Source of the DNA: Tubulanus polymorphus | Taxonomy: Eukaryota; Nemertea; Palaeonemertea; Tubulaniformes; Tubulanidae | Direction of reading: 5' to 3' | NCBI RefSeq assembly: GCF_964204645.1 | Contig: NC_134027.1 | Coordinates: 27,702,485-27,766,484 of the forward strand | Length of the DNA: 64,000 bases | In this document: in pieces, positions 101 through 48,300 of the stretch | How positions within the stretch are numbered: the first letter of the stretch is position 1 | Layout: each line of letters starts with the position of its first letter | The notes under the pieces: generated by a model | What the model was told of the DNA's origin: nothing | Databases searched by the model: none | Seen by the model: only the letters and a program-made list of their open reading frames with translations | Made by a program: the position numbers and the translations under genes

Positions 101-943
101 GGTTTGTTTCGTTGTTTAATAGGTTTGTTTCGTTGTTTAATAGGTTTGTTTCGTTGTTTAATAGGTTTGTTCCGTTGTTTAATAGGTTTGTTTCGTTGTT
201 TAATAGGTTTGTTTCGTTGTTTAAAAGGTTTGTTTCGTTGTTTAATAGGTTTGTTTCGTTGTTTAATAGGTTTGTTCCGTTGTTTAATAGGTTTGTTTCG
301 TTGTTTAATAGGTTTGTTTCGTTGTTTAAAAGGTTTGTTTCGTTGTTTAATAGGTTTGTTTCGTTGTTTAAAAGGTTTGTTTCGTTGTATAAAAGGTTTG
401 TTTCGTTGTTTAATAGGTTTGTTCCGTTGTTTAATAGGTTTGTTTCGTTGTTTAATAGGTTTGTTTCGTTGTTTAAAAGGTTTGTTTCGTTGTTTAATAG
501 GTTTGTTTCGTTGTTTAAAAGGTTTGTTTCGTTGTATAAAAAGGTTTGTTTTGTTGTATAAAAAGGTTTGTTTCGTTGTTTAAAAGGTTTGTTTCGTTGT
601 TTAAAAGGTTTGTTTCGTTGTTTAAAAGGTTTGTTTCGTTGTTTAAAAGGTTTGTTTCGTTGTTTAATAGGTTTGTTTCGTTGTTTAATTTGTTTGTTTC
701 GTTGTTTAATAGGTTTGTTTCGTTGTTTAATAGGTTTGTTTCGTTGCTTAATAGGTTTGTTTCGTTGTTTAAAAGGTTTGTTTCGTTGTTTAATAGGTTT
801 GTTTCGTTGTTTAATAGGTTTGTTTCGTTGTTTAATAGGTTTGTTTCGTTGTTTAATAGGTTTGTTTCGTTGTTTAATAGGTTTGTTTCGTTGTTTAATA
901 GGTTTGTTTCGTTGTTTAATAAGTTTGTTTCGTTGTTTAATAG
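101..943 (+). repeat. 21-bp minisatellite forming the 3' part of creatinase-1 intron 1
   Basis: About 40 near-identical 21-bp units (consensus GGTTTGTTTCGTTGTTTAAT plus A). Variants TTTAAAAGG, TATAAAAAGG and TTCCG are interspersed. Each TTTAATAG unit looks like a weak pyrimidine-rich tract plus AG, and the last AG (942-943) is the acceptor of the following creatinase exon. Because 21 is a multiple of three, long spurious ORFs run through it on both strands. The flank at 75-95 resembles the flank of the second array at about 5370, so the two arrays descend from one duplicated intron. Confidence 0.95.
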
Positions 944-2821
944 GCGAGCGTGTTCTCAACAACTGAAATCGAAAATAGAATATCGAAATTACGATCCAAC
1001 ATGAGTCAGAATGATATCGGCGGAATTGTGTTAACGTCATACCACAATATAAACTACTACACTGGGGGCTTCCTTTACTGTTATTTCGGGAGAAACTATG
1101 GTTTACTGGTTACACAGGACCAATGTTTACCCATATGCCCCAGTATTGATGCGGGTCAGCCCTGGAGGAGGTCACTCATAGCCGATAATGTCGTCACTTA
1201 TACAGATTGGCAGCGTGATAATTATTTCCATGCAGTACAGAATTGTCTGAAAGACACAAAAGGTAAAATAGGTCTCGAATTCGACCATGTCAGTTTGGAT
1301 AATTTCAAGAAGTTCGATAAAGCTTTACCGAACGGCTCAGAGAAGGTCGATATCGGTGAGCCGACTATGAGAATGAGGATGGTGAAATCCGCTGAAGAAA
1401 TCGACGTCATTAAATCTGGAACTGCTATAGCTGAAATAGGTGGCGCTGCACAGATCGATGCGTTACACGAAGGCGTACCCGAGCACGAGGTGGCGCTGGC
1501 GTCGACTCAAGCTATGATTCGTGAAATTGCTCACAGATATCCGCAATGTGAAATTATGGACAGTAAGTCTATAAACTACAGGACTCCAGTTTAACAGTTG
1601 TGAGTTCAAATTCACTCATTGATTTTGAGGAACTGTGAAACCGGCTCCATTTGTTGCTGTCTTTATCCCAGTTTAAAATGTTAAATTGTTTCTAATTGTT
1701 TTAATGATATTATTCTGAAGCTTGGAGTTGGTTCATGTCTGGAGTAAACACAGATGGCGCTCATAATCCAGTAACTACTCGTAAAGTGGAGAAAGGTGAT
1801 ATACTCAGTCTGAACTGCTTCCCGAATATTGCTGGGTAGGTATGACGTCACGATTATTTCTTCGTAAAACCGCTAGGGGGCAGCACTATTACTAGTTTGT
1901 TTATTTGAACAAGTTTATTGTGTTTCACAGTTTGTAATGTTTCTATTGAGTCATCTAATTTGTAATTTAGAGTCTCTGATCGAGTCGAGAAGAAACACAT
2001 CCGTGATTGATTCGTCAGATGATCGCCTGATGATGGCTAATATTCAATACTACTTTTTGCACAGGTATCATATGGCTTTGGAGAGGACGCTATTTCTCGA
2101 TCACGCTTCGGACAAACATCTGGAACTGTTTGAAAAGAACTGCGCCGTCCATCGTCGCGGTTTAGAACTAATAAAACCGGGCGTTAGATGTAAAGATATA
2201 GCTCTTGAATTGAATGAAATGTATCGTCAGTTTGGGCTGTTACAATATCGTAGTTTTGGTTATGGTCATTCGTTTGGGTCATTGAGTCATTATTACGGAC
2301 GAGAGGCCGGTAAGAACAGAAATACATCGTAGATATCCTATAGTTTCCAGGTGTTGAATATTAATTAGCATTAATTAGCATAATTTTGCATATATTTGCA
2401 TAAATTATTCAGTGAAAAATAGATAATTACATTATCTCATTCGTTCTTCATTATTGAAGTCTCGACTGTAAGACGGTGTTTACACAAATTTACATAAATC
2501 TGCATAAATTATCATATTTTAATATAGTAAAGATATTTATATTAATTTGCACGAATCTACATTAATTATCCTTAAAAAAATTCTAAAAATGAATGGGTTG
2601 GAATAATTCTTTCAATTTTAGCTCTAGAATTACGGGAAGATATTGAGACTGTATTGGAACCAAATATGGTAATATCGATGGAGCCTATGATAACAGTACC
2701 GGAAGGAGAGGCTGGAGCTGGTGGTTACAGAGAACATCACATTGTAGTCATTACTGAAACAGGTGCTGATATTGTTACCAAATTTCCATTTGGTCCCGAA
2801 CACAATATCATTAAAAAATAA
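944..2821 (+). CDS. Creatinase (creatine amidinohydrolase), copy 1, 5'-truncated by window edge
   Basis: Hydrolyses creatine to sarcosine and urea; M24/pita-bread fold without metal. Exons 944-1562, 1721-1835, 2065-2309 and 2622-2821 join with consistent phases (0/1/2/1) to 392 codons plus stop, all GT-AG. The product is collinear with bacterial creatinase: FTSYHNINYY-like start, FGR, IDxGQPWRR, YTDWQRDNYF, TDGAHNPVTTRKV, LERTLFLDH, FGYGHSFG, YYGRE, SMEPM and the end NIIKK. The residues corresponding to Pseudomonas R64, H232, E262, R335 and E358 are all present. The first exon lies left of the window (compare 4803-4952). Copy 1 differs from copy 2 mainly around FLYCYFGRNY, LPICPSIDAG and the W-S-W-F-M segment before TDGAH, where copy 2 is closer to the bacterial sequence. 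Poly(A) signal at 2923. The family call is strong; substrate is inferred from the conserved site. Confidence 0.93.
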
Positions 2822-2922
2822 TCCACTTTCGAATAACATTATTCAATCACGTATTATTTTCTAATGTGATTTTATTCGTATATAGAATAATAACCTCTCA
2901 TCAATTATTATGAAAAGTCTTA

Positions 2923-2928
2923 AATAAA
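2923..2928 (+). promoter_or_regulatory. poly(A) signal of creatinase copy 1
   Basis: AATAAA about 100 bases after the stop codon, in AT-rich DNA. Confidence 0.6.
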
Positions 2929-3269
2929 TTCATCTTTTAATTCAGTTTAATTGTTTTTTATTTATCTGCTGGGTCGCTCAACTGTAGTCTGGATTCGAAC
3001 CTGAGTCCACCGGCCCACTGGGTCACCGGCCCGAACTCCTGAGTGATCACTATCAACATGACCCACATCAACATGAAACAATCTTCGGAATCTTGGGCGC
3101 TAAAGTTTACAAGAAGTGTTAATTCAAAGATTCTCCGATTAACGAGATAACTAATTTTCCTATCGGAATGATTGGAGATGTTTTGAAATTATCAAGCCTA
3201 AGCGAGCCTGGGGCTGACCTCTCTGATGCAGTCGTCCTAGTGAGAGACTTGACCTCGGATCTCTCTGGC

Positions 3270-3740
3270 TGTAGTGGCCCATCACTCGAGTGAGGCCCGG
3301 TCTCGCGTGTCTCAGGCTGTGGCCCATCACTCGAGTGAGGCCCGGTCTCGCGTGTCTCCAGCTGTGGCCAGTGACTCTTTCTCACATTTTATATTGAGCT
3401 TGTTGAAAATTTATCAAATCTTATTGCTGTTTGTTTGTTTGTTTCTCTTAATATCTCAGTGTTATACGCTCTGTGTGAGATATATTTGAACTCGGTGAGG
3501 CCCGACCTCAGATATCTCCAGTTGTGGCCAGTCACTCAGCGAGGTTCGACCTCAGATATCACCAGTTGTGGACAGTCACTCAGCGAGGTTCGACCTCAGA
3601 TATCTCCAGTTGTGACCAGTCACTCAACGAGGTTCGACCTCAGATATCTCCAGTTGTGACCAGTCACTCAACGAGGCTCAACCTCAAATATCTCCAGTTG
3701 CGGCCAGTCTCTCAGCGAGGCTCGACCTCAGATCTTGTGG
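3270..3740. repeat. two related tandem repeats of about 45 bp between the creatinase genes
   Basis: Two copies of a unit with GTGGCCCATCACTCGAGTGA (3274-3372), then six copies of a diverged unit with TCAGATATCTCCAGTTGTG and CAGTCACTCA (3490-3735). The shared core GAGGCCCG/GAGGTTCGACCTC suggests one origin. No coding potential recognised. Confidence 0.8.
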
Positions 3741-4104
3741 TCTCCTTTGAGAGACTGAAACAGTTTGATATCTGCTATATTGGAATGTACTGTAGGGCCG
3801 AGTGCCATTAGATCTCCGCTGATCACCTGATTTCAACATTCTCGCCCGAATAATCATTGAAACAATTGGCTACAAATTTAAAACGTGACTAGCAAATCTA
3901 GAACGCGACTGTTGTTCAACACAACTGTTCACAGTATAAACTGATAGTCGATTACTGATCAATTGATACTAGAGTCACACTTAAAACTTTTGTTGTACTT
4001 TGTTCAAGTGTCGATTTTCTGATATGCGAGAAATTGATAATATTTACTGGATCAATCTGGTGGAGCCCGGCTCAAACTGATAAAGGAAGGTGTCGCCACT
4101 GTAA

Positions 4105-4548
4105 TCTCCGACTGGTAAACCGTGCCTTTCATTAGATAAGCAGCTCTCCGACTGGTAAAAGCTCTCTATTGTCAGGATTATCAGCTCTCCGACTGGTAAA
4201 ACTTCTCTATTGTCAGGATTATCAGCTCTCCGACTGGTAAAACCTCACTATTGTCAGGATTATCAGCTCTCCGACTGGTAAAACTTCTCTATTGTCAGGA
4301 TTATCAGCTCTCCGACTGGTAAAACTTCTCTATTGTCAGGATTATCAGCTCTCCGACTGGTAAAACTTCTCTATTGTCAGAATTATCAGCTCTCCGACTG
4401 GTAAAACTTCTCTATTGTCAGGATTATCAGCTCTCCGTCTGGTAAAACTTCTCTATTGTCAGGATTATCAGCTCTCCGACTGGTAAAACCTCACTATTGT
4501 CAGGATTATCAGCTCTCCGACTGGTAAAACTCACTATTGTCAGGTACG
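4105..4548. repeat. 41-bp minisatellite upstream of creatinase copy 2
   Basis: About ten units containing CAGCTCTCCGACTGGTAAAA followed by a CTTCTCTATTGTCAGGATTAT-like stretch. It ends about 250 bp before the first coding exon of copy 2. Confidence 0.9.
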
Positions 4549-4802
4549 TTTAAACTGCTGTATAAGTATGTTGCATAAACTTGTGCACAGGTTGTTTTAG
4601 ATGTATCTAGGCACCAGATGAAAATATTCTGCGGGTTTTTTTCATGCGGTTTACAGGATCCACGATTTCTTCTTACGTGTGCGGGGATTAAAACAATCAA
4701 GGTATAATAAACAATGTAGAACCTGAATGTAGGACTATTTGTGTGTATTTGTATTTCCAGCTATTGTACTGTGTATTTAAATGTGTATTTGTATTTTCAG
4801 CG

Positions 4803-7800
4803 ATGGCTCTGCAATTATTTCTGAGGAATGTCAGAAACCTGAAGCCGAAGACCGGCGTTAGTTTCAGTGCTTTAAACCGTTATACGACTTCGTCACAAAC
4901 TGCAGACGATAGTAGACCTCGTTTGATAGCAACCATGAAACAGGGTGAAAAGGTATCTATATTCCAGTTTGTTCCTGTCAAATTTTGCGAGTGTCATTTG
5001 GCTTTTAACCAAGTTACGTAACACATAGTGAATAATTGTCTAGACAATTATCTAGACTCATATAAAAGATCTCTGACACAGTTTGATAAAGGCCCTCGTG
5101 ATACGAGTAGAACAAGGACATATAATATAATCGCGGTCAATTGATTTCTTATATAGAATTTAAAAGTTTTAGAACTGAATTTATCGATTTAACAATTTGG
5201 ACTAGAAATAGCTCTGACTAAAGATCGTACCTGATGATCGTTCAAATACCTGAATAATTTCTGTTTTAGACACGTGATTTGTTTCAACTCATACAAGGAT
5301 ACGTGTCTAATAAACAACCATTTTCCTGACGAGAATAAATTCTTATCTACAGATCCGTATATAGAATCACCCCTATCTCAAGATAGCGTTTGTTTCGTTG
5401 TTTGATAGGTTTGTTTCGTTGTATAAAAAGGTTTGTTCCGTTGTTTAATAGGTTTGTTTCGTTGTTTAATAGGTTTGTTTCGTTGTTTAATAGGTTTGTT
5501 TCGTTGTTTAAAAGGTTTGTTCCGTTGTTTAATAGGTTTGTTTCGTTGTTTAATAGGTTTGTTTCGTTGTTTAATAGGTTTGTTTCGTTGTTTAAAAGGT
5601 TTGTTTCGTTGTTTAATAGGTTTATTTCATTGTTTAAAAGGTTTGTTTCGTTGTTTGATGGGTTTGTTTCGTTGTAAAAAAAGGTTTGTTTCGTTGTTTA
5701 ATGGGTTTGTTTCGTTGTATAAAAAGGTTTGTTTCGTTGTTTAATAGGTTTGTTTCGTTGTTTAATAGGTTTGTTTCGTTGTTCAAAAGGTTTGTTTCGT
5801 TGTTTAATAAGTTTATTTTCGTTGTTTAATAAGTTTGTTTCGTTGTTTAATAGGTTTGTTTCGTTGTTTAATAGGTTTGTTTCGTTGTTTAAAAGGTTTG
5901 TTTCGTTGTTTAATAAGTTTGTTTCGTTGTTTAATAAGTTTGTTTCGTTGTTTAATAGGTTTGTTTCGTTGTTTAATAGGTTTGTTTCGTTGTTTAAAAG
6001 GTTTGTTTCGTTGTTTAATAAGTTTGTTTCGTTGTATAAAAAAGTTTGTTTCGTTGTTTAATAGGTTTGTTTCGTTGTATAAAAAGGTTTGTTTCGTTGT
6101 ATAAAAAGGTTTGTTTCGTTGTTTAATAGGTTTATTTCGTTGTATAAAAAGGTTTGTTTCGTTGTTTAATAGGTTTATTTCGTTGTATAAAAAGGTTTGT
6201 TTCGTTGTTTAATAGGTTTGTTTCGTTGTATAAAAAGGTTTGTTTTGTTGTTTAATAGGTTTGTTTCGTTGTATAAAAAGGTTTGTTTCGTTGTTTAATA
6301 GGTTTGTTTCGTTGTATAAAAAGGTTTGTTTCGTTGTTTAATAGGTTTGTTTCGTTGTTTAATAAGTTTGTTTCGTTGTATAAAAAGGTTTGTTTCGTTG
6401 TTTAATAGGTTTGTTTCGTTGTATAAAAAGGTTTGTTTCGTTGTTTAATAGGTTTGTTTCGTTGTTTAAAAGGTTTGTTTCGTTGTTTAATAGGTTTGTT
6501 TCGTTGTTTAATAGGTTTGTTTCGTTGTTTAATAGGTTTGTTTCGATGTTTAAAAGGTTTGTTTCGTTGTTTAATAGGTTTGTTTCGTTGTTTAATAGGC
6601 GAGCGTGTTCTCAACAACTGAAATCGAAAATAGAATATCGAAATTACGATCCTACATGAGTCAGAATGATATCGGCGGAATTGTGTTAACGTCATACCAC
6701 AATATAAACTACTACACTGGTGGCTTCGTTTACTGTGCTTTCGGGAGAAACTATGGTTTACTGGTTACACACGATCAGTGTACGACAGTTTGTCACGGTA
6801 TTGATGGGGGTCAGCCCTGGAGGAGATCACTCATAGCCGATAATGTCGTCACTTATACAGATTGGCAGCGTGATAATTATTTCCATGCAGTACAGAATTG
6901 TCTGAAAGACACAAAAGGTAAAATAGGTCTCGAATTCGACCATGTCAGTTTGGATAATTTCAAGAAGTTCGATAAAGCTTTACCGAACGGCTCAGAGAAG
7001 GTCGATATCGGTGAGCCGACTATGAGAATGAGGATGGTGAAATCCGCTGAAGAAATCGACGTCATTAAATCCGGGGCTGCTGTAGCCGATATAGGTGGCG
7101 CTGCAGGAGTCGACGCGTTACGTGATGGCGTACCCGAGCACGAGGTGGCGCTGGCGTCGACTCAAGCTATGATTCGTGAAATTTCTCACAGATACCCGCA
7201 ATGTGAAATTATGGACAGTAAGTCTATAAACTACAGGACTCCAGTTTAACAGTTGTGAGTTCAAATTCACTCATTGATTTTGAGTCAAATTTGAACTCAC
7301 AACTGTGAAACCGGCTCCAGTTGTTGCCATCTTTATCCCAGTTTAAAATGTTAAATTGTTTCTAATTGTTTCAATGACATTATTCTAAAGCTTGGACTTG
7401 GTTCCAGTCTGGAATGAACACAGATGGCGCTCATAATCCAGTAACTACTCGTAAAGTGCAGAAAGGTGATATACTCAGTCTGAACTGCTTCCCGATGATA
7501 TCTGGGTATGTATGACGTCACGATATTTTCGTCGTAAAACCGCTAGGGGGCAGCACCATCGCCGCACGCTGTATTTTTTCAAGATGTTGTGAACGGTCGA
7601 AATTTGATCCTTATTGAACTTACTTAAGCTCTTGAGAGCGTTTGTCGGTTTCAACAAAGTGTACACAAGTTTGTCTTATACCTCTAATACCTGCCAGGGA
7701 TTTGAGTGTAAATAAAATAAGATTTAAAAAGATACTCTTCACTTTGCACAGGTATTATACGGCTTTAGAGAGGACGCTATTTCTCGATCACGCTTCGGAC

Positions 7801-8492
7801 AAACATCTGGAACTGTTTGAAAAGAACTGCGCCGTCCATCGACGCGGTTTAGAACTAATAAAACCGGGCGTTAGATGTAAAGATATAGCTCTTGAATTGA
7901 ATGAAATGTATCGTCAGTTTGGGCTGTTACAATATCGTAGTTTTGGTTATGGTCATTCGTTTGGGTCATTGAGTCATTATTACGGACGAGAGGCCGGTAA
8001 GAACAGAAATACATCGTAGATATCCTTTAGTTTCCAATTGTTAAACATAAATTTGCATGAATTAGCATATTTTTGCATAAATTATTCTGAAGAAAAATAG
8101 ATAATTACACGATTTCATTCTTTCTTCATTATTGAGGTCTCGACTGTAAGAAGGTTTTTTACGCCAATTTACATAAATCTGCATAAATTATTGTATTTTA
8201 GTAAAGATACTACATAAATTAACATATATCTGCATTAATTATCTTACAAGACTTCCAAAATGAATGGGTTGGAATAATTTTTTCGATTTTAGCTCTAGAA
8301 TTACGGGAAGATATTGAGACAGTATTGGAACCAAATATGGTAATATCGATGGAGCCTATGATAACAGTACCGGAAGGAGAGGCTGGAGCTGGTGGTTATA
8401 GAGAACATGATATACTAGTCATTACTGAAACAGGTGCTGAAAATATTACTAAATTTCCGTTCGGTCCCGAACACAATATCATTAAAAAATAA
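4803..8492 (+). CDS. Creatinase, copy 2, complete, with mitochondrial-type presequence
   Basis: Exons 4803-4952, 6599-7217, 7391-7505, 7752-7996 and 8293-8492 give 1,329 nt (442 aa plus stop); bacterial creatinase is about 400 aa. The extra length is the N-terminus: residues 1-30 (MALQLFLRNVRNLKPK...) are rich in R/K and S/T with no acidic residue, as in a matrix-targeting peptide. The creatinase domain then starts near RLIATMKQGEK, matching the bacterial RNGDKV region. The active-site set (FGR, DGAH, LERT, YYGRE, SMEP) is intact, and TWTWFQSG is nearly bacterial. A possible 5' UTR exon precedes, with an acceptor CAG at 4798-4800 three bases before the ATG. Intron 1 is mostly minisatellite. 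Poly(A) signal at 8597. Animal creatinase may reflect an old bacterial transfer; the introns show it is long resident. Confidence 0.95.
5388..6598 (+). repeat. 21-bp minisatellite forming most of creatinase-2 intron 1
   Basis: About 57 units of the same 21-22 bp family as 101-943, with many TATAAAAAGG variants in the middle (5680-6430). The last unit's AG (6597-6598) is the splice acceptor of exon 2. Confidence 0.95.
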
Positions 8493-10344: not shown

Positions 10345-13300
10345 TCATTTGTAAACTGGTTTTAAATTCAGATGGAAATTACGACTTGGTTTCGCCGGTG
10401 CCGCTGATGAGTCATCAATTGTTGGTCGTTTTCGACGTTGTTTATGAACAGACGTACGACTTGCTCGTACTATACTCACTATCATCGATTTACACTCTTT
10501 ACAAATCGTCATCTGAGGACCTTTTAAATTAGGATTGATTTGTTGTGGTTTTGTGGAGACAGTAGTTTGAGCTCGTTGGAACCGGGTACGCCTGTGTTCT
10601 GCTCCTCCTCCTCCTGCTCCTCCTCCTCCGGTTGGTGTACTCGTTTTAGGCGGTGTTTTATTTTGAACTGTTTTCAATGCTATCACAGGAGAAGATGGAC
10701 ACGAACCAGTCCTAGAAAATACAACAACTCTGTGCAGTTTACTGTGGCAAGTGAGGTGTCGCTAGTGTGCAGTAGGACATCAACTAAAAATGCAGCAAAA
10801 GAAGATTCCGCTTGTGGCAATAGAGGATCCTCCAGGTGTCATTAGTGTGAAGTAGGACATTCTATTCCATCTCTGTTGAATGTGCACTCCTTCCCCTCCC
10901 CAAACACAAATTCTAAATTGATTAAATTTCCCATAAACTTCATGATAAGCGCTCCTGAGTGTTTGTTAAAATACTCACATATCATTCAATAATTGCTGTT
11001 CGGTGTTTGGTGACATCGGACTCGGACTCAATGTGTAAACAGGAATATTCTCAAAATGTTCAGTCGGTATGTGCATCTAAAATAAACAGTATTCCGGTGA
11101 AGCTCTCAGTCAGTCAGACCGATATAATCAACAGAAATAGGAAATACTGATCTTACCTTCCTGCAGCATCGATTACAAATAGTTCTCTTACAGAATTTAC
11201 ATTTAGTTCCCCATTCTCCGAACAAAGTGAATCGAGTCAATTTACAATTAAAACAGATCTAGAAAAATAACGAATCATTAAATAAACTCAATGTCATTCT
11301 GATAAATAGATAATATTGATTGATTATCGTTGAGCTACCTTTGATTTTTCCACTAGTTTATACAACTCTGCGTCTACTATTAAACTTTCCAACTCTGCTT
11401 TAGTTAAAACGTTTCTGATATGCATAACTTCCTCGACTGTTAGAGACAAACACTGTAGCGGATCTTTAAATTTAGACTACAAGAAACAAAACAAAACGAC
11501 ACCAAATTTTAAAACATTTTATCAAATTGTTCAGCCTTTTGTTCTAACGCGATATTCATGCAATAGAAACAAGCTGACATCAGATCTGATCAATTCAAAG
11601 ATATTTGTTTAACACAAAATGCCATCCCTCGAAGAATTTAGGACCAAAAAGATCTGACTTGAGAGGAGTCAACAGCCAAAGTCTGTTATAACGATGCTAT
11701 CTATTTCAATGCCAGTGTTTAGTTCAAGCTAACATTCCTCTGGGAACAAATCATGCAAAATCTCACTCAAATTCTATGAAAATATTATTCATCGGCGATC
11801 ATTATAATCCAGTGTCCCAGGTACTCGTAATAATGAGGTTCCATCGTCAATTTCTCTAAAACTTGTTATAATTCCATATTTATCTTGAACTCGATTGCGA
11901 GTATTACTGCTGTATAGTTTATAAAACTGAACTAATTTCATTAATAAAACTCACACAAACAATCATTAATAAATAAAGATATTAGTAATAAACGAACATA
12001 CTTACATTAGGAGAGGATGAGATATTGAGAATGTTAGGTGGTGAATGTTTAGCAGTCCACGGAACTCCATGCGGATCAATAAAATCATCGGTTTCATCAC
12101 GTTTTGTTTCACCGAATAATAATAAAGGACTCAATACCTTATATGGGTATGAAGCAGCAGCAGCAGATACAGGTGATTGACAAACTGTTATACTGTGCCT
12201 GCGTTCTGGGCCACTGTTCAATTTTCTCTCTTCGGTAGCTAAATCTAAAGTGACTGCAAACAGAGAAATTAAAGAATCTACAATCAGTCATCACAGGAGT
12301 CATGTAGCTGCCAGTCAGTCATCACAGGAGTCATGTAGCTGCCAGTCAGTCATCACAGGAGTCATGTATCTACAATCAGTCATCAGGGGAGTCATGTATC
12401 TACAATCAGTCATCAGGGGAGTCATGTATCTACAATCAGTCATCAGGGGAGTCATGTATCTACAATCAGTCATCAGGGGAGTCATGTATCTACAATCAGT
12501 CATCAGGGGAGTCATGTATCTGCAGTCAGTCATCAGGGGAGTCATGTATCTGCAGTCAGTCATCAGGGGAGTCATGTATCTGCAGTCAGTCATCAGGGGA
12601 GTCATGTATCTACAATCAGTCATCAGGGAGTCATGTATCTGCAGTCAGTCATCAAGGGATTCATTTATCTGCAGTCAGTCATTAGGGGAGTCATGTATCT
12701 GCAGTCAGTCATCAGGGGAGTCATGTATCTGCAGTCAGTCATCAGGGGAGTCATGTATCTGCAGTCAGTCATCACGAAAGTCCTGTGAAATACCCTATTA
12801 TTGAGGCATTAACTCAACACAGAAATCATTGCTATTTTTGAGTCTCAATTTATACTGCTAATTCAATTAACTATTAGTATAAGTCATTATTTGGATCAGA
12901 TATTAACACAATGATTGACTTAAACAGTCAATGATTTTCTCAGTATTTCATCGAATTATGATTAACGAGATTTAGTTGAGGTAAAAATTATATGATTGAT
13001 TGTGATATACCTCGTTTTTGCCAGGATTGTAAATGTTGTTGATTTGTATCTGGTGTTATCGGTGATAACTGTACAACATTAGCGGGTGACACGTGAACGC
13101 GATTCTTTATTTCCTCATCTTCATCTTCAGACATTTCATCATCATCCTGAAATAAACCACGCATACAATTTAAACACGTGTTCTCAAACGGATGAAATTA
13201 ACCATAGACAATTTAAACACACCTTCTAAAACGGAGGAAATTAACCATACACAATTTAAACACGTGTTCTAAAACGGATGAAATTAACCATAGACAATTT

Positions 13301-16300
13301 AAACACGCGTTCTCAAACGGATTAAATTAACCATACACAATTTAAACACGTGTTCTCAAACGGATGAAATTAACCATACACAATTTAAACACGTGTTCTC
13401 AAACGGATGAAATTAACCATACACAATTTAAACACGTGTTCTCAAACGGATGAAATTAACCATACACAATTTAAACACGCGTTCTATAACGGATGAAATT
13501 AACCATACACAATTTAAACACGCGTTCTCAAACGGATGAAATTAACCATACACAATTTAAACACGCGTTCTAAAACGAATGAATGACGTGTAAAACATGA
13601 ATCTCACTTACGCTGTAACTACTCAACAAATTGAAATCAGCTTTGATTAATTTTCTCGTCGGTGTCGGCGTTAAACCGTCCTCAAATAGTTTCGTCCTCG
13701 ACGTTTCAACTGAAATATATAAATAAAACTTCTGAATGAATTTACATGGAAGAAACAGAGCTGTTTATGAGAACAAGGATTAAAGAGACAGTAACAGATT
13801 CTACAGTTCATTTCTAAATCAAATAGTATTCATTTCAAGTTATATTCAGTGATTACTGGTGAGCAGCGATACCGTACTGGTAGCAGCGATACCGTACTGG
13901 TACTGCAGCAGCGATACCGTACTGGTACTGCAGCAGCGATACCGTACTGGTACTGCAGCAGCGATACTGTACTGGTACTGCAGCAGCGATACCGTACTGG
14001 TACTGCAGCAGCGATACCGTACTGGTACTGCAGCAGCGATACTGTACTGGTACTGCAGCAGCGATACTGTACTGGTACTGCAGCAGCGATACTGTACTGG
14101 TACTGCAGCAGCGATACCGTACTGGTACTGCAGCAGCGATACCGTACTGGTAGCAGCGATACCGTACTGGTACTGCAGCAGCGATACCGTACTGGTACTG
14201 CAGCAGCGATACCGTACTGGTACTGCAGCAGCGATACTGTACTGGTACTGCAGCAGCGATACTGTACTGGTACTGCAGCAGCGATACTGTACTGGTACTG
14301 CAGCAGCGATACTGTACTGGTACTGTAGCAGCGATACCGTACTGGTACTGCAGCAGCGATACCGTACTGGTACTGCAGCAGCGATACCGTACTGGTACTG
14401 CAGCAGCGATACCGTACTGGTACTGCAGCAGCGATACTGTACTGGTACTGCAGCAGCGATACTGTACTGGTACTGCAGCAGCGATACTGTACTGGTACTG
14501 CAGCAGCGATACTGTACTGGTACTGCAGCAGCGATACTGTTACATGTATAGTATTATAGCAGACACAGTCAGGGTTTATAGTCGTACAGGCTGAGACAAA
14601 GTAAACCGTTTTAACGCTCTTTTTGATTGTAAAAGTCAGCACTTTTTAAGCATCTTGTAGACTGACTATGAACCCTGTCGGTAGAGTGTAGAGTTAAATT
14701 GTTAATTCTTACTACTAAAATTAGATGATTAACACCATGAACCCAGGGGAAGGTGTACAGTGCTCGAACCTCTCCGATTAAAGTCAGGGGAAGGTGTACA
14801 ATACTCTAACCTCTCTGATTAAAGTCAGGGGAAGGTGTACAATACTGTAACCTCTCCGATTAAAGTCAGGGGAAGGTGAACAGTCGGCTATTGAAACCAA
14901 AACCCGATTATATAGTAGAAATTAAAATAGAAACTGTTTTAATTAATAATCATAAATCACCCGAGCTTTTTACAGGTTCTCGCAGGCCTGAAATGGAATA
15001 ATTATCACTGTATATATGAAACACTAGTGACAGACGTGATAAATCTCTCATCATTACCTCCTGATATTGTATTCCTTCTTTGTAAATCACCTTTATAAAT
15101 TACATACAAATAAACATTAAAATATTGAAACAAAAATAAATGAATTCACAACAAAAACTGAATCAAGAGAATCTTGAGATTTTACCGTAAGCGGTCGGTT
15201 TGAGTTGACGATGTTCACCGGCTGACCCTCGAATAGCTTCCATTAACTCCTCGCGAGGATCAAAATCACGTTTTGGAGGAGACTTCAACACTCGGTCTTT
15301 AGCCTGACAAAATATCATGACTCATCGTCAAAATAAAAGCCATGATTTATAGGTGTGTGATTGATACCGGTTCTTACTGGATGTAACGGAGGTCTAGTAC
15401 TTACCGGATGTAACGGAGGTCTAGATCTTATAAACTCTAATATCACTGCGTGCGCATCTTCTTTTACTTTAGCCGGCAATTTACTAGTTTCAATCTGTAG
15501 AATAAATCAGTAAGATTATTCTTTATTCAGAGGGAAGGAAGGAGGTAGAAGGGGAGGTAGGGAGGAGGGCATCCTCCCGTGGCAGGGATTTGATGGCATC
15601 GAGACTCATCACGGTATGAAACCCTGCCACTCTAGACCGAGTGCGCAGCTACATGCACAGCTTAGATGATGTCATTATTTGCAATCAGATATCCCGCTTT
15701 ATTTCAGCACAGGTTTTCCCATTTATAGTTCTTTTGTGAAATTTGCACAAGCGATTATACAACGAGCAATCTGATTGGTGCCGCAAGTTTTCGTGCGGTA
15801 AAGCTGCGCATGTACCTGCGCACCCGGTCTAGTGTGGCAGGGGCCTTCATGCCGTGGCTGAGTGTAGCAAGTGATGTCATCAGGTTGGAATCCCTGCCAT
15901 GGAGGATGGATAGGGAGGTAGGGTGGTAGGATGGATAGGGAGGTAGTAGGGAGGGTGCCAGGATGGATAGGGAGGTAGGATAGATAGGGAGGTAGGAGGG
16001 AAGGTAGTAGGGAGGGTGGTAGGATGGATAGGGAGGTAGAAGGGAGGGTGGTAGTAGGGAGGGTGGTAAAATGGATAGGGAGGTAGTAGGGAGGGTGGTA
16101 GGATGGATAGGGAGGTAGAAGGGAGGGTGGGAGGGAGGGTGGTAGGATGGATAGGGAGGTAGGAGGGAAGGTGGAAGGAGGGTTGTAGGATGGATAGGGA
16201 GGTAGTAGGGAGGGTGGTAAAATGGATAGGGAGGTAGTAGGGAGGGAGGTGGGAGGTAGGTATAATTTACCTGTACTTTATTCAGTCTATATCTCCTGTA

Positions 16301-35210: not shown

Positions 35211-38200
35211 CATCAGGGATTAATCGATTGATGTCTGTCTGCAGAGTTTCCAGAACACCTGTCATGTCAGTTTTAATGCAGACCTGTCACCACAGGTCCC
35301 GAAGACTCTGCAAAATGGCGCGAGCTGCCGTGTGAGGTCTCGCTTCAAAATTATTGTTTTATAGTAACTTAAGATTACCTATATCCATGGTTAGCAATTT
35401 AATATTATATTCATTACTATAAAGATACCATAAAAAGTGAAGTTTTTTCCATTTCATCAGTTTTAATGCAGACCTGTCACCACAGGTCCCGAGAAGCTCT
35501 GCAAAATGGCGCGAGCTGCCGTGTGAGGTCTCGCTGCATAATTATTGTTTTATAGTAACTTAAGATTAATTCTATCCATGGTTACCAATTTATGTTATAC
35601 TCTTTACTATAAAGAGACCATAAAAATTAAAGTTTTCCTTCATTTCATCAGTTTTAATGCAGACCTGTCACCACAGGTCCCGAAGGCTCTGCAAAATGGC
35701 GCGAGCTGCCGTGTGAGGTCTCGCTTCATAATTATTGTTTTATAGTAACTTAAGATTAACTATATCCATGTTTAGCAATCTATATTATACTCTTTACTAT
35801 AATAGAGACCATAAAAATTAAAGTTTTCCTTCATTTCATCAGTTTTAACGCAGACCTGTCACCACAGGTCCCGAGAAGCTCTGCAAAATGGCGCGAGCTG
35901 CCGTGTGAGGTCTCGCTGCATAATTATTGTTTTATAGTAACTTAAGATTAATTCTATCCATGGTTACCAATTTATGTTATACTCTTTACTATAAAGAGAC
36001 CATAAAAATTAAAGTTTTCCTTCATTTCATCAGTTTTAATGCAGACCTGTCACCACAGGTCCCGAAGGCTCTGCAAAATGGCGCGAGCTGCCGTGTGAGG
36101 TCTCGCTTCAAAATTATTGTTTTATAGTAACTTAAGATTAACTATGTCCATGTTTAGCAATCTATATTATACTCTTTACTATAATAGAGACCATAAAAAT
36201 TAAAGTTTTCCTTCATTTCATCAGTTTTAATGCAGACCTGTCACCACAGGTCCCGAAGACTCTGCAAAATGGTGCGAGCTGCCGTGTGAGGTCTCGCTTC
36301 AAAATTATTGTTTTATAGTAACTTAAGATTACCTATATCCATGGTTAGCAATTTAATATTATATTCATTGCTATAAAGAGACCATAAAAATTAAAGTTTT
36401 CCTTCATTTCATCAGTTTTAATGCAGACCTGTCACCACAGGTCCCGAAGACTCTGCAAAATGGTGCGAGCTGCCGTGTGAGGTCTCGCTTCAAAATTATT
36501 GTTTTATAGTAACTTACGATTACCTATATCCATGGTTAGCAATTTAATATTATATTCATTGCTATAAAGAGACCATAAAAATTAAAGTTTTCCTTCATTT
36601 CATCAGTTTTAATGCAGACCTGTCACCACAGGTCCCGAGAAGCTCTGCAAAATGGCGCGAGCTGCCGTGTGAGGTCTCGCTTCATAATTATTGTTTTATA
36701 GTAACTTAAGATTACCTATATCCATGGTTAGCAATTTAATATTATATTCATTGCTATAAAGAGACCATAAAAATTAAAGTTTTCCTTCATTTCATCAGTT
36801 TTAATGCAGACCTGTCACCACAGGTCCCGAGAAGCTCTGCAAAATGGCGCGAGCTGCCGTGTGAGGTCTCGCTTCATAATTATTGTTTTATAGTAACTTA
36901 AGATTAACTATATCCATGTTTAGCAATCTATATTATACTCTTTACTATAATAGAGACCATAAAAATTAAAGTTTTCCTTCATTTCATCAGTTTTAATGCA
37001 GACCTGTCACCACAGGTCCCGAAGGCTCTGCAAAAAGGCGCGAGCTGCCGTGTGAGGTCTCGCTTCATAATTATTGTTTTATAGTAACTTAAGATTAACT
37101 ATATCCATGTTTAGCAATCTATATTATACTCTTTACTATAATAGAGACCATAAAAATTAAAGTTTTCCTTCATTTCATCAGTTTTAACGCAGACCTGTCA
37201 CCACAGGTCCCGAGAAGCTCTGCAAAATGGCGCGAGCTGCCGTGTGAGGTCTCGCTGCATAATTATTGTTTTATAGTAACTTAAGATTAATTCTATCCAT
37301 GGTTACCAATTTATGTTATACTCTTTACTATAAAGAGACCATAAAAATTAAAGTTTTCCTTCATTTCATCAGTTTTAATGCAGACCTGTCACCACAGGTC
37401 CCGAAGGCTCTGCAAAATGGCGCGAGCTGCCGTGTGAGGTCTCGCTTCATAATTATTGTTTTATAGTAACTTAAGATTAACTATATCCATGTTTAGCAAT
37501 CTATATTATACTCTTTACTATAATAGAGACCATAAAAATTAAAGTTTTCCTTCATTTCATCAGTTTTAACGCAGACCTGTCACCACAGGTCCCGAGAAGC
37601 TCTGCAAAATGGCGCGAGCTGCCGTGTGAGGTCTCGCTGCATAATTATTGTTTTATAGTAACTTAAGATTAATTCTATCCATGGTTACCAATTTATGTTA
37701 TACTCTTTACTATAAAGAGACCATAAAAATTAAAGTTTTCCTTCATTTCATCAGTTTTAATGCAGACCTGTCACCACAGGTCCCGAAGGCTCTGCAAAAT
37801 GGCGCGAGCTGCCGTGTGAGGTCTCGCTTCAAAATTATTGTTTTATAGTAACTTAAGATTAACTATGTCCATGTTTAGCAATCTATATTATACTCTTTAC
37901 TATAATAGAGACCATAAAAATTAAAGTTTTCCTTCATTTCATCAGTTTTAATGCAGACCTGTCACCACAGGTCCCGAAGACTCTGCAAAATGGTGCGAGC
38001 TGCCGTGTGAGGTCTCGCTTCAAAATTATTGTTTTATAGTAACTTAAGATTACCTATATCCATGGTTAGCAATTTAATATTATATTCATTGCTATAAAGA
38101 GACCATAAAAATTAAAGTTTTCCTTCATTTCATCAGTTTTAATGCAGACCTGTCACCACAGGTCCCGAAGACTCTGCAAAATGGTGCGAGCTGCCGTGTG

Positions 38201-40163
38201 AGGTCTCGCTTCAAAATTATTGTTTTATAGTAACTTACGATTACCTATATCCATGGTTAGCAATTTAATATTATATTCATTGCTATAAAGAGACCATAAA
38301 AATTAAAGTTTTCCTTCATTTCATCAGTTTTAATGCAGACCTGTCACCACAGGTCCCGAGAAGCTCTGCAAAATGGCGCGAGCTGCCGTGTGAGGTCTCG
38401 CTTCATAATTATTGTTTTATAGTAACTTAAGATTACCTATATCCATGGTTAGCAATTTATATTATATTCATTACTATAAAGATACCATAAAAAGTGAAGT
38501 TTTTTACATTTCATCAGTTTTAATGCAGACCTGTCACCACAGGTCCCGAAGGCTCTGCAAAATGGCGCGAGCTGCCGTGTGAGGTCTCGCTTCAAAATTA
38601 TTGTTTTATAGTAACTTAAGATTACCTATATCCATGGTTAGCAATTTATATTATATTCATTACTATAAAGATACCATAAAAAGTGAAGTTTTTACATTTC
38701 ATCAGTTTTAATGCAGACCTGTCACCACAGGTCCCGAAGGCTCTGCAAAATGGCGCGAGCTGCCGTGTGAGGTCTCGCTTCAAAATTATTGTTTTATAGT
38801 AACTTAAGATTAACTATGTCCATGTTTAGCAATCTATATTATACTCTTTACTATAATAGAGACCATAAAAATTAAAGTTTTCCTTCATTTCATCAGTTTT
38901 AATGCAGACCTGTCACCACAGGTCCCGAAGACTCTGCAAAATGGTGCGAGCTGCCGTGTGAGGTCTCGCTTCAAAATTATTGTTTTATAGTAACTTAAGA
39001 TTACCTATATCCATGGTTAGCAATTTAATATTATATTCATTGCTATAAAGAGACCATAAAAATTAAAGTTTTCCTTCATTTCATCAGTTTTAATGCAGAC
39101 CTGTCACCACAGGTCCCGAGAAGCTCTGCAAAATGGCGCGAGCTGCCGTGTGAGGTCTCGCTTCATAATTATTGTTTTATAGTAACTTAAGATTACCTAT
39201 ATCCATGGTTAGCAATTTATATTATATTCATTACTATAAAGATACCATAAAAAGTGAAGTTTTTTACATTTCATCAGTTTTAATGCAGACCTGTCACCAC
39301 AGGTCCCGAAGGCTCTGCAAAATGGCGCGAGCTGCCGTGTGAGGTCTCGCTTCAAAATTATTGTTTTATAGTAACTTAAGATTACCTATATCCATGGTTA
39401 GCAATTTAATATTATATTCATTGCTATAAAGAGACCATAAAAATTAAAGTTTTCCTTCATTTCATCAGTTTTAATGCAGACCTGTCACCACAGGTCCCGA
39501 AGCTCTGCAAAATAGCGCGCGTTGCCGTGTGAGGCCTCACTAATTAATCAGTGTTATGTCTAATTTATGTCAACTTATAAGCTTGGACTGAAATGTTTTT
39601 GAATTGTATGTACACTTGGTTAATTAATTATATTGCGAGTAATTAATAATAATATATAATAATATAGGGCCTAATCTTAATGAGTGTTATTAATACTGAT
39701 TATGATTACAAGGCACTACTGGTATCATTTTGCCTGATCTTGATATTTTTATGTTTCGTGTTACAAAAAAATAAATTAATTGTAAACAATTCGTTCAATG
39801 TTCTCCAATAATTCACAATCATTCCATCTTTATTATTATAAGGCGATATAGTTCAACAACTTTTTATAAACGGACAAACATAAATTCTTAAATGAATTTA
39901 TAACACATCATAGTTTGTTTTTTGTTTTTGAATAACATATTCAGAAAGCACTACGATATGTTCTTTGTGTTCTTATCGGCTATCATTTGTTCTAAATCCG
40001 CGCCTATCATATCTTCTAATCGACTATCATCGGTTCAGTCATAACGATTTTCATTTTAGCGAATCGACCTGTCACCTGAGGTCCCACCTGTCATGTCAGG
40101 TCTTGGGCCCTGACATGACAGGTTCTGGAAACTCTGCAGACAGACCTAAATGGATTAATCCTG
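35211..40163. mobile_element. element with about 50-bp inverted ends enclosing a 191-bp satellite array
   Basis: The left end (from CAGGGATTAATCG) reads through TGTCTGTCTGCAGAGTTTCC, AGAAC and CCTGTCATGTCAG. The right end, read on the other strand from 40163, gives CAGGATTAATCC, the same GTCTGTCTGCAGAGTTTCCA and AACCTGTCATGTCAG. So the array is bounded by matching inverted termini, starting CAGG like hAT/TIR elements. Between array and right end (39540-40070) lies AT-rich unique DNA without a transposase. No convincing target duplication is visible. The left end starts about 230 bp upstream of the P450 ATG. Confidence 0.65.
35266..39535. repeat. 191-bp satellite array, about 22 monomers, with higher-order structure
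   Basis: Each monomer contains CAGTTTTAATGCAGACCTGT, CACCACAGGTCCCGA, ATGGCGCGAGCTGCCGTGTG and TTTTATAGTAACTTAAGATT. GACCTGT-CACC-ACAGGTC is a short hairpin in every unit. Monomer types (CGAAGAC/CGAAGGC/CGAGAAGC, GGTGCG/GGCGCG, TATAATAGAG) recur at a spacing of 1,721 bp, nine monomers. The repeated 66-codon ORFs in it are artefacts. Confidence 0.95.
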
Positions 40164-45300: not shown

Positions 45301-48300
45301 TTTATTCTAGGACGAAAAAAATTATGTGGCATTATTCCACCTAGGATTAGTAACTCAATCGGACTGTCCTGCCAGTTGTCATGTGGCCTAAGGTCAGAAG
45401 TGGCTGGTCATCCGACTGTCCGCCTAGGGTTAGAGTAACGGGTAACTGTCGCGTCAGTCACCCGGGATTAGTAGCCTCAGGTCGTGCCTAGGGTTAGGGT
45501 AACGGGTAACTGTCGCGTCAGTCACCCGGGATTAGTAGCCTTAGGTCGTGCCTAGGGTTAGAGTTACGGGTAACTGTCGCGTCAGTCACCCGGGATTAGT
45601 AGCCTCAGGTCGTGCCTAGGGTTAGAGTTACGGGTAACTGTCGCGTCAGTCACCCGCGATTAGTAGCCTCAGGTCGTGCCTAGGGTTAGAGTTACGGGTA
45701 ACTGTCGTGTCAGTCACCTGGGATTAGTAGCCTCAGGTCGTGCCTAGGGTTAGAGTTACGGGTAACTGTCGCGTCAGTCACCCGCGATTAGTAGCCTTAG
45801 GTCGTGCCTAGGGTTAGAGTTACGGGTAACTGTCGCGTCAGTCACCTGGGATTAGTAGCCTTAGGTCGTGCCTAGGGTTAGAGTTACGGGTAACTGTCGC
45901 GTCAGTCACCCGGGATTAGTAGCCTCAGGTCGTGCCTAGGGTTAGAGTTACGGGTAACTATCGCGTCAGTCACCTGACCTAGGGATAGGGCTGTGATTGG
46001 CTATGACGTCAACCATGTAAACATTGATGATATCAGCAGTTTTCGAAGTATCGTTTCTTGTAATAACGAAATCTTACCCCAAGCAAACGGAATATAGCAC
46101 TTGATTCGTCCTTTAGTGACACCTGACGTGACGGCGTAGAATATATACAATCCTTCAATCCATAACCAAGCGAATGTCGCCACATAGAAATAGTGAATCA
46201 GCATCGATACTGCTTTACAGAAATTCTATAATAAATCATATTAATTGTAAATTTATACACATGTCTATATAGTTGCCAAACTGCGGGATTAACTGGTATT
46301 CATCCATCTCTCACAATGTGCTGATCGATTTTAAAGGCCTACCTTATTCACTAAAGCAGAATCGCTCAATAAGAAGAAGAAATGAGCAAAAATCATAGCA
46401 ATCACTAAATTCAGATGGATGAAATTTCTCTCACAATACAGGTGTCTGAAAATACACAAAATACAGAAAATACAGGTGTCTGAAAATACACAAAATACAC
46501 AAAATACAGGTGTCTGAAAATACACAAAATACAGGTGTCTGAAAATACACAAAATACAAGTGTATAAAAAACCTACGAATTCCCATAAGAATAAGCATCG
46601 ATTCATCTTGCGTATCAATAGATGATCTTGTTGATTTTAAGTACTATGCATGATTAGCTGCAAGACATGGACCCCTGCTCCATGTATCCCTGCCTCTTGG
46701 ACCCCTGTCTCCTAGATCCCTGCCCCATGGACCCCTGCCTCCTGGACCCCTGTCCCATGGACCCCCCCCCCCCTTGACTCTTTGCCTCCTGGACCCCTGC
46801 CCCGTGGATCCCTGCCTCCTGGACCCCTGTCCAATGGACCCCTGCCCCATGGACTCTGGTTGTGTAAGACAATTCAATACTTACCGATTAGAAACGAGTA
46901 CAGTGAAGAATAACGATAAACACAACAATGAAACGATTAAACCGATATAGGTCAGAATTCTGAGGACTGTTTCATGAACGCTTGGAGTCTATAAAATAAA
47001 ACATCAACATTTCATCCATTAAATTCCAGCTCAGTGGTTAATGAAGACGTGTATTATAGACTTACATGAACAGGAATCGGTTGCATCAAAATGGCGAAAT
47101 TAGTCAAATGATTACATTCACAAGTTGTATGTGTTTTATCAGTAGAGATTACTCTACATCCATCACCGCCCCATTCTATATGTCCGTTCCTACACAAATA
47201 TATATATATACAACATGATGACCACTACTACACAAAACATTATTATCAACGATATAACCGAGTAGAACAGTTTCATTCACTTTTTGGGACCAGAAAGAAT
47301 AGTTATATTCCTTATTACTACAGTTTGTCGCATCCAGAATGAACGAAATTTTCCTATTTAACAAAAAACTAAATTTCTAATAACCGTTAATCTTATTTGG
47401 CTCGAAATTCTAGGTTTGTAATAATCGATAAATCGTTATAACCGAGGTTCCGCTGTATCAATGTAGATTGTAAAAGGCACAGATTGATGATGTCAAGTTG
47501 AACTTACTTTGAAACGCGTTTGACGAATGCGCAATAAACATTCAGTTTAGTTTTACCGCTGTTAACCTGTTGATGCGCTAGTTTGAATTTAACGACTCCT
47601 CCGTTATTAAATCCAGTAGTACGAGATGGATAAACACTGGCTGTGATTATATTACTGTTTACTATTACTACACTATCATTTATTGTGTGAGAACTGTGAA
47701 AATAGAAATCAATATCATTAGTAAAATCAGGCCTAATTCTGAGTATCAATCTTAGAACTTTCACCACTACGTGTGAAGTGTGGACGATCAGTTTGTGAAA
47801 GTGTGCTGATAAAATGTGTAATCTCTGGTGTTTGTAGTTCATTTTCAATTAGAAAAGTCTCAGGCGAAATACTGGACACATGTTGACGATAGCACAAATT
47901 GGAGTAATGAATATCTGTTGGGTTGCAGCAAATTGATACCTTTATAAACGCTATACTTACTTTGGTTCAACTGAAGATGGATAAAAATGTCCGATATTGT
48001 TGTATAAACACATAACTAAATTCGCTTTTATTCCTGAAAATAACATGAAAAACGTGTTAAATAATTTCGTATAGTTCGTATACAAATCGAAGTCGAGAAT
48101 TAAAACCTACCAGAAACAATGTGATCCATTAAAATGTCATTAGGCGGTAGTTCTATAAAATCACTGTAATCTGGACGCCATTTTGTAAGAGTTGTTTTAA
48201 CTGCTGTATCAGTGTAACTAGGGAAACTTATTGTTTCATTTTGACAATCTGTAACCACTAATTTACCAACAGTCATTACTAAAAATAGAAAATAGTTCCT

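Follow-up and report, generated by a model that had tools for sequence, protein, structure and literature searches.

When the 3′ part of an intron is built from a minisatellite, and unit after unit ends in an AG that looks like a proper acceptor, which AG is joined to the exon upstream? This question is raised by two creatinase genes in the 64,000 nucleotide stretch of DNA analysed here, referred to as the window. The genome comprises 267.8 Mb in 77 contigs. Some 41 kb separate the window from the end of its contig, C3, and no chromosome-end repeat was found in the final 3 kb of the contig. The best explanation as a whole, to which we assign a probability of about 0.7, is that a minisatellite lies beside the acceptor of intron 1, that its last AG would be the productive site in both genes, and that the remainder of the array would be tolerated. 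In what follows, positions are those of the window, a slash marks a splice boundary, and all creatinase features are on the + strand.

The creatinase gene pair

The two creatinase genes are arranged head to tail, and a protein search of the genome found only these two. Both are interrupted by intron 1 after MKQGEK, and this intron is 1,294 nt long in copy 1 and 1,646 nt long in copy 2. Exon 1 of copy 1 is found just upstream of the window (-500 to -351; L009 4501-4650) and has the donor GTATCT, as in copy 2. Exon 2 of copy 1 (944-1562) begins ASVFSTTE and is followed by exons at 1721-1835, 2065-2309 and 2622-2821, and the protein is intact at 442 aa. In copy 2, exon 1 (4803-4952) encodes MALQLFLRN...MKQGEK and ends at the donor AAG/GTATCT, exon 2 is at 6599-7217 and the later exons are at 7391-7505, 7752-7996 and 8293-8492. 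Exon 2 of copy 2 is assigned to Creatinase_N and Peptidase_M24, the domains found when the spliced copy 2 protein was scanned.

Identity of the encoded proteins to bacterial creatinases, most of them from proteobacteria, is 60-68 %, and an ancient transfer of the genes from bacteria is possible. An extra N-terminus of about 40 aa is possibly a mitochondrial targeting peptide. In exon 2 of copy 1, a cluster of changes (1128-1160) gives LPICPSIDAG where copy 2 has TTVCHGIDGG and bacteria have IDGG, and an altered function of copy 1 is possible.

Acceptor repetition is also present just 5′ of the ATG. In copy 2 (4741-4801), the acceptor TTTGTATTTTCAG/CGATGG is preceded by its own copy, TTTGTATTTCCAG/C, and in copy 1 (L009 about 4360-4500) there are five TTTGTATTT-type copies. 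This is a small-scale version of the acceptor repetition seen in the intron 1 arrays described below. Upstream of copy 2, a 41-bp array (4141-4544) ends ...TATTGTCAG/GTACGT, a good donor, and copy 1 (L009 3960-4010) has about one 41-bp unit, then AAA/GTAAGT. The array upstream of copy 2 is possibly a 5′ UTR exon built from a minisatellite.

Extent and distribution of the intron 1 arrays

The 3′ part of intron 1 is occupied in copy 1 by exactly 40 units of GTTTGTTTCGTTGTTTAATAG (array 1, 102-943, 842 bp) and in copy 2 by exactly 57 units (array 2, 5388-6598, 1,211 bp), each unit being 21 or 22 bp long. TRF reported array 1 at 101-944 (21 bp x 40.1, 95 % match) and array 2 at 5383-6599 (21 bp x 57.2, 89 % match). 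The last unit, at 923-943 in array 1 and 6578-6598 in array 2, is the exact consensus in both, and homology across the exon junction marks it as the probable 3′ splice site, with the AG at 942-943 and 6597-6598, respectively. The arrays abut exon 2 exactly, as the exon starts at 944 or 6599, immediately 3′ of the final AG. The anatomy of the arrays is settled.

A search of the genome (268 Mb), with up to 2 mismatches permitted, recovered 90 matches to the unit GTTTGTTTCGTTGTTTAATAG, 89 of them within the two arrays and one a solitary match elsewhere with 2 mismatches. As 89 of the 90 matches fall there, the unit is private to the two creatinase introns. A dispersed repeat or satellite that inserted at the acceptor is ruled out, as the GTTTGTTTCGTTGTTTAATAG-type unit is found only in these two introns. 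Rfam identified no RNA family in the window.

The acceptor of intron 1

When exon 1 is joined at 944 or 6599, a stop-free creatinase of 442 aa is obtained from both copies. The nearest solved structures, PDB 7yto (E 5e-171) and 1chm (E 2e-170), align across the junction, and the residues on either side of it are conserved among 80 bacterial creatinases. On the exon 1 side, G48 is present in 80/80 and K50 in 76/80, and on the exon 2 side, F54 is present in 79/80, E58 in 79/80 and R62 in 80/80. None of the 80 has an insertion between K50 and A51. Homology thereby establishes the last AG of the array as the predicted acceptor of intron 1 in both copies, and the proposal of the sequence-only reading, that the last unit of the minisatellite supplies the acceptor of the ASVFSTTE exon in both genes, is upheld by the intact products and the conserved junction.

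The same reading held that only the last array AG gives an open product, and this too was borne out. Products from the upstream AGs all stop early; they are mostly 55 aa long, ending ...GEKVCFVV, the longest listed is about 125 aa and none exceeds 200 aa. One additional in-frame AG is present 66 nt inside exon 2 (420 aa), and is not an array site. Because the last AG is the only one in the array that joins exons 1 and 2 in frame, we infer that it would be the site mainly used in productive mRNA.

Exon 2, at about 619 nt, is long for exon definition. Scanning models prefer the first AG after the branch point (PMC1431707), and use of the last AG would not be automatic, because scanning favours the first AG and a branch-like motif is present in each unit of the common type. 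This motif, TTAAT, fits yTnAy and places its A 25 nt 5′ of the next acceptor. In array 1, the penultimate unit has TTAAT with its A at -25 of the real AG, and a similar CTAAT is found at -25/-26 in intron 2 of both copies and intron 3 of copy 1. Overall, 25/39 AGs in copy 1 and 35/55 in copy 2 have a branch-like motif 14-35 nt upstream, and UUUGUUU is present in most units. A distant branch point with an AG exclusion zone was also considered and rejected, as AGs recur every 21-22 nt upstream of the real site.

The upstream AGs

Counting the real acceptor, there are 39 AGs in array 1 and 55 in array 2. The sequence-only reading had estimated about 40-57 near-identical candidate acceptors; many equal candidates do exist, and it is the counts that need correction. 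Over -21 to +1, 20/38 upstream AGs in copy 1 and 23/54 in copy 2 are letter-identical to the real site, and hence the core 3′ splice site cannot discriminate between them. Sequence 3′ of the AG, or pairing that involves the exon 2 side, would set the choice of acceptor rather than the core site; any discrimination must be due to position or to features on the exon side.

There is no sign of selection keeping the upstream AGs. Position 21 of the unit, where the G of the AG falls, belongs to the most variable positions, three unit junctions have no AG (one AATTT, one GATGG and one AATGG), and in units of the AATAA type the AG is displaced by one base (AAG/TT). The earlier statement that each unit has TAA TAG is incorrect, as AAAAG variants have one stop, TTTGATAG has TGA TAG, and a small number of units have no stop.

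Nearly all of the upstream AGs are followed by GT (37/38 in copy 1 and 47/54 in copy 2), whereas the real acceptors are followed by GC. The presence of AG/GT at nearly all decoy sites and AG/GC at the real one is a new observation on these arrays. Mis-splicing to an upstream AG would consequently recreate a donor, AAG/GTTTGT, which matches U1 at 6/9 positions, equal to the real exon 1 donor AAG/GTATCT, and has mismatches at +3/+4.

Alternative explanations

With so many decoys that share the sequence of the real site from -21 to +1, and nearly all of them leading to a stop after five codons, a sizeable share of transcripts could be spliced to upstream units, end after VCFVV and be lost to nonsense-mediated decay, and the length of the array would then tune creatinase output. 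A precedent for the use of alternative units is human IFI6, where downstream minisatellite units serve as alternative donors (PMC4526556). However, the decoy AGs are not conserved, and amphioxus mirages (repeats discussed below) leave regular splicing undisturbed by RT-PCR (PMC3087553). Leakage on this scale is compatible with the main explanation, and we consider it unlikely. The recreated donor leads to a different suggestion, namely that wrong choices are intermediates rather than dead ends. A splice to an upstream unit would rebuild AAG/GTTTGT, which is then joined to another unit further on, and the process would end at the last AG, which is followed by GC and cannot act as a donor. The GT after nearly every upstream AG, the GC after the real acceptors and the equal U1 match of the exon 1 donor all favour this self-correcting ladder. 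However, units less than about 60 nt from the end of the array cannot re-splice, given the minimum length of an intron, GTTTGT has no match at +3/+4, and AG/GT may merely be where the unit repeats. Tandem AGGT sites in UBC do serve as both donor and acceptor (PMC10809524), but in Drosophila the donors restored at ratchet points are mostly strong ones, a cryptic exon is required for recursive splicing, and sites that have been regenerated are suppressed by the exon junction complex (PMC8605326). Re-splicing from decoy units is possible but not likely, and a ladder of this kind appears distinctly improbable.

A U-rich unit, repeated and kept long in both copies, might instead bind many U-rich RNA-binding proteins and so regulate the splicing or export of both genes. 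Such a role seems very doubtful, given that neither the length of the array nor the order of its units is constrained. As tandem arrays are hard to assemble, an assembly error, or an exon 1 that is not joined to the exon 2 given here, must also be weighed. However, the arrays are at two separate loci with different lengths and different unit variants, open genes flank both, and the junction residues are conserved, making an artefact extremely improbable.

Origin of the arrays

According to the main explanation, the minisatellite would have arisen next to the acceptor of intron 1, the most probable mechanism being slippage during replication, or an unequal exchange, that involved the last ~21 bases of the intron. 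Each unit approximates a complete 3′ splice site, the common type having the branch-point-like TTAAT, with its A about 25 nt before the AG of the next unit, a U-rich tract and AG/G. Otherwise, the array would be tolerated intron sequence, its length free to vary while the last unit stays intact. Growth of the minisatellite from the acceptor itself is plausible, judging by position only.

The array would have formed before the tandem duplication of the creatinase gene, or spread afterwards by conversion. The sequence-only reading favoured presence before the duplication, and in part the comparison agrees, as both arrays contain the five most frequent unit types. However, the order of units is shared no better than in shuffled arrays, the observed score for array 1 against array 2 being reached by 166/1000 shuffles with SW and 774/1000 with NW, and retention of an ancestral unit order in both copies is unsupported. 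Short matching stretches are present immediately 5′ of both arrays. The creatinase copies differ by dS 0.094 and dN 0.037, and the 300 bp around exon 1 (-561 to -262 against 4742 to 5041) are 97.3 % identical, with adjoining non-coding sequence that can be aligned only in patches. There are hints in these sequences of gene conversion between the copies. Because gene conversion could give the same picture of shared units, an array that predates the gene duplication is likely, and not proved.

Comparison with known repeats at splice sites

Tandem repeats known as mirages have been described in the amphioxus genes Adh3, the globins BflGb6 and BflGb9, TnC and PGBD5 (PMC3087553; PMC3902484). Like the creatinase arrays, they are minisatellite-like, lie in tandem at the boundary of an exon and an intron and present real splice signals in several copies; their copy number varies between copies, their clusters hold AG/GT signals, and RT-PCR shows normal splicing (PMC3087553). 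The creatinase arrays likewise are tandem repeats that include a real splice signal of the gene in which they lie. However, mirage units cover both intron and exon, whereas the creatinase unit is intron-only; the last unit ends at the AG, and exon 2 begins GCGAGCGTGTTC where the unit has GTTTGTTTCGTT. The BflGb6 mirage has 3 and 6 units compared to 40 and 57 in the creatinase arrays, and, unlike the amphioxus mirages, the creatinase arrays occupy both genes of a tandem pair. The genome analysed here is probably not that of an amphioxus, though this is not proof: at 268 Mb it is smaller than the known lancelet genomes, and it gave no GFP-family match in a search whose control likewise gave no signal. 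Models for COX1, mollusc haemocyanin and annelid linker also had no match in it, which carries no weight as evidence.

Other systems share single features. In the dual-specific AGGT arrays of UBC and VCX3A, the unit boundary is AG/GT and each copy is a possible acceptor and donor, as in the creatinase arrays, where AGGT is found at the boundary for 37/38 and 47/54 of the upstream AGs. However, the UBC and VCX3A repeats are coding and their isoforms differ in monomer number, whereas the creatinase units are intronic and stop-bearing, with a last site of AG/GC (PMC10809524). The IFI6 (6-16) minisatellite is also short, located at a splice junction and provides several equal sites, but these are donors, few in number, and alter the coding product, whereas the creatinase sites are acceptors leading to dead frames (PMC4526556, citing Turri 1995). 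Among human internal tandem repeats in segmental duplications, boundary minisatellites occur in recently duplicated paralogues, as here, but they create new introns or change proteins, whereas in the creatinase genes the position of the intron is old and the protein has not been altered (PMC2812944). Recursive splicing (ratchet) points share the juxtaposed AG/GT inside an intron, but usually lie in long introns, restore a strong donor and are accompanied by a cryptic exon, in contrast to an intron of 1.3-1.6 kb and the weak GTTTGT (PMC8605326). A small literature search, in which absence proves little, yielded no earlier case of acceptors supplied by the dozen from a minisatellite. The creatinase arrays are of a known repeat type, set apart by the intron-only unit and the very many acceptor copies.

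Other repeats in the window and genome

Minisatellites number 3.3 per 10 kb in the window; across fifteen samples of 10 kb, taken from six contigs, the figure is 0.47. Further arrays of the window also adjoin acceptors. One, in a gene for a receptor of the adhesion type (7tm_2, PF00002, E 2e-42; 46435-46570, - strand), has TTTTGTGTATTTTCAG/ACACCTGTA four times before the exon HLYCERNFIHLNL, with spacings of 25, 34 and 34. Its unit includes exon bases, and the first and last copies keep one open frame; this array is a mirage of the classic kind.

Two further arrays are in a Spire-like gene on the - strand, identified by a KIND domain match and otherwise by eye. The first, of 43-bp units (13165-13583), fills almost the whole of an intron and runs into the acceptor TGGTTTATTTCAG/G. 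Its units read TGGTTAATTTCAT, without an AG, having TTTCAT where the real site has TTTCAG. The second, of 30-bp units (12276-12774), stops about 20 nt short of the next acceptor, TTTGCAG/TCACTTTAG. The window also contains a large tandem array of 22 copies of 191 bp (35267-39538), and one sampled 10-kb piece (L124, C5:12000001-12010000) is tandem satellite from end to end.

Implications

Choice of a 3′ splice site among equals is usually studied with few engineered copies. The creatinase introns offer 38 and 54 natural upstream AGs, many of them identical in the core site, in one tandem pair of genes, and a wrong choice would be easily recognized in cDNA. Clean use of the last AG would be beyond what the core 3′ splice site sequence and simple first-AG scanning can account for; if use is not clean, the ladder of units measures the error rate. 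Minisatellites that repeat a splice boundary have been described mainly from amphioxus, and the window suggests that they are also common in another animal-like genome. The creatinase pair is a real and clean natural experiment on acceptor choice.
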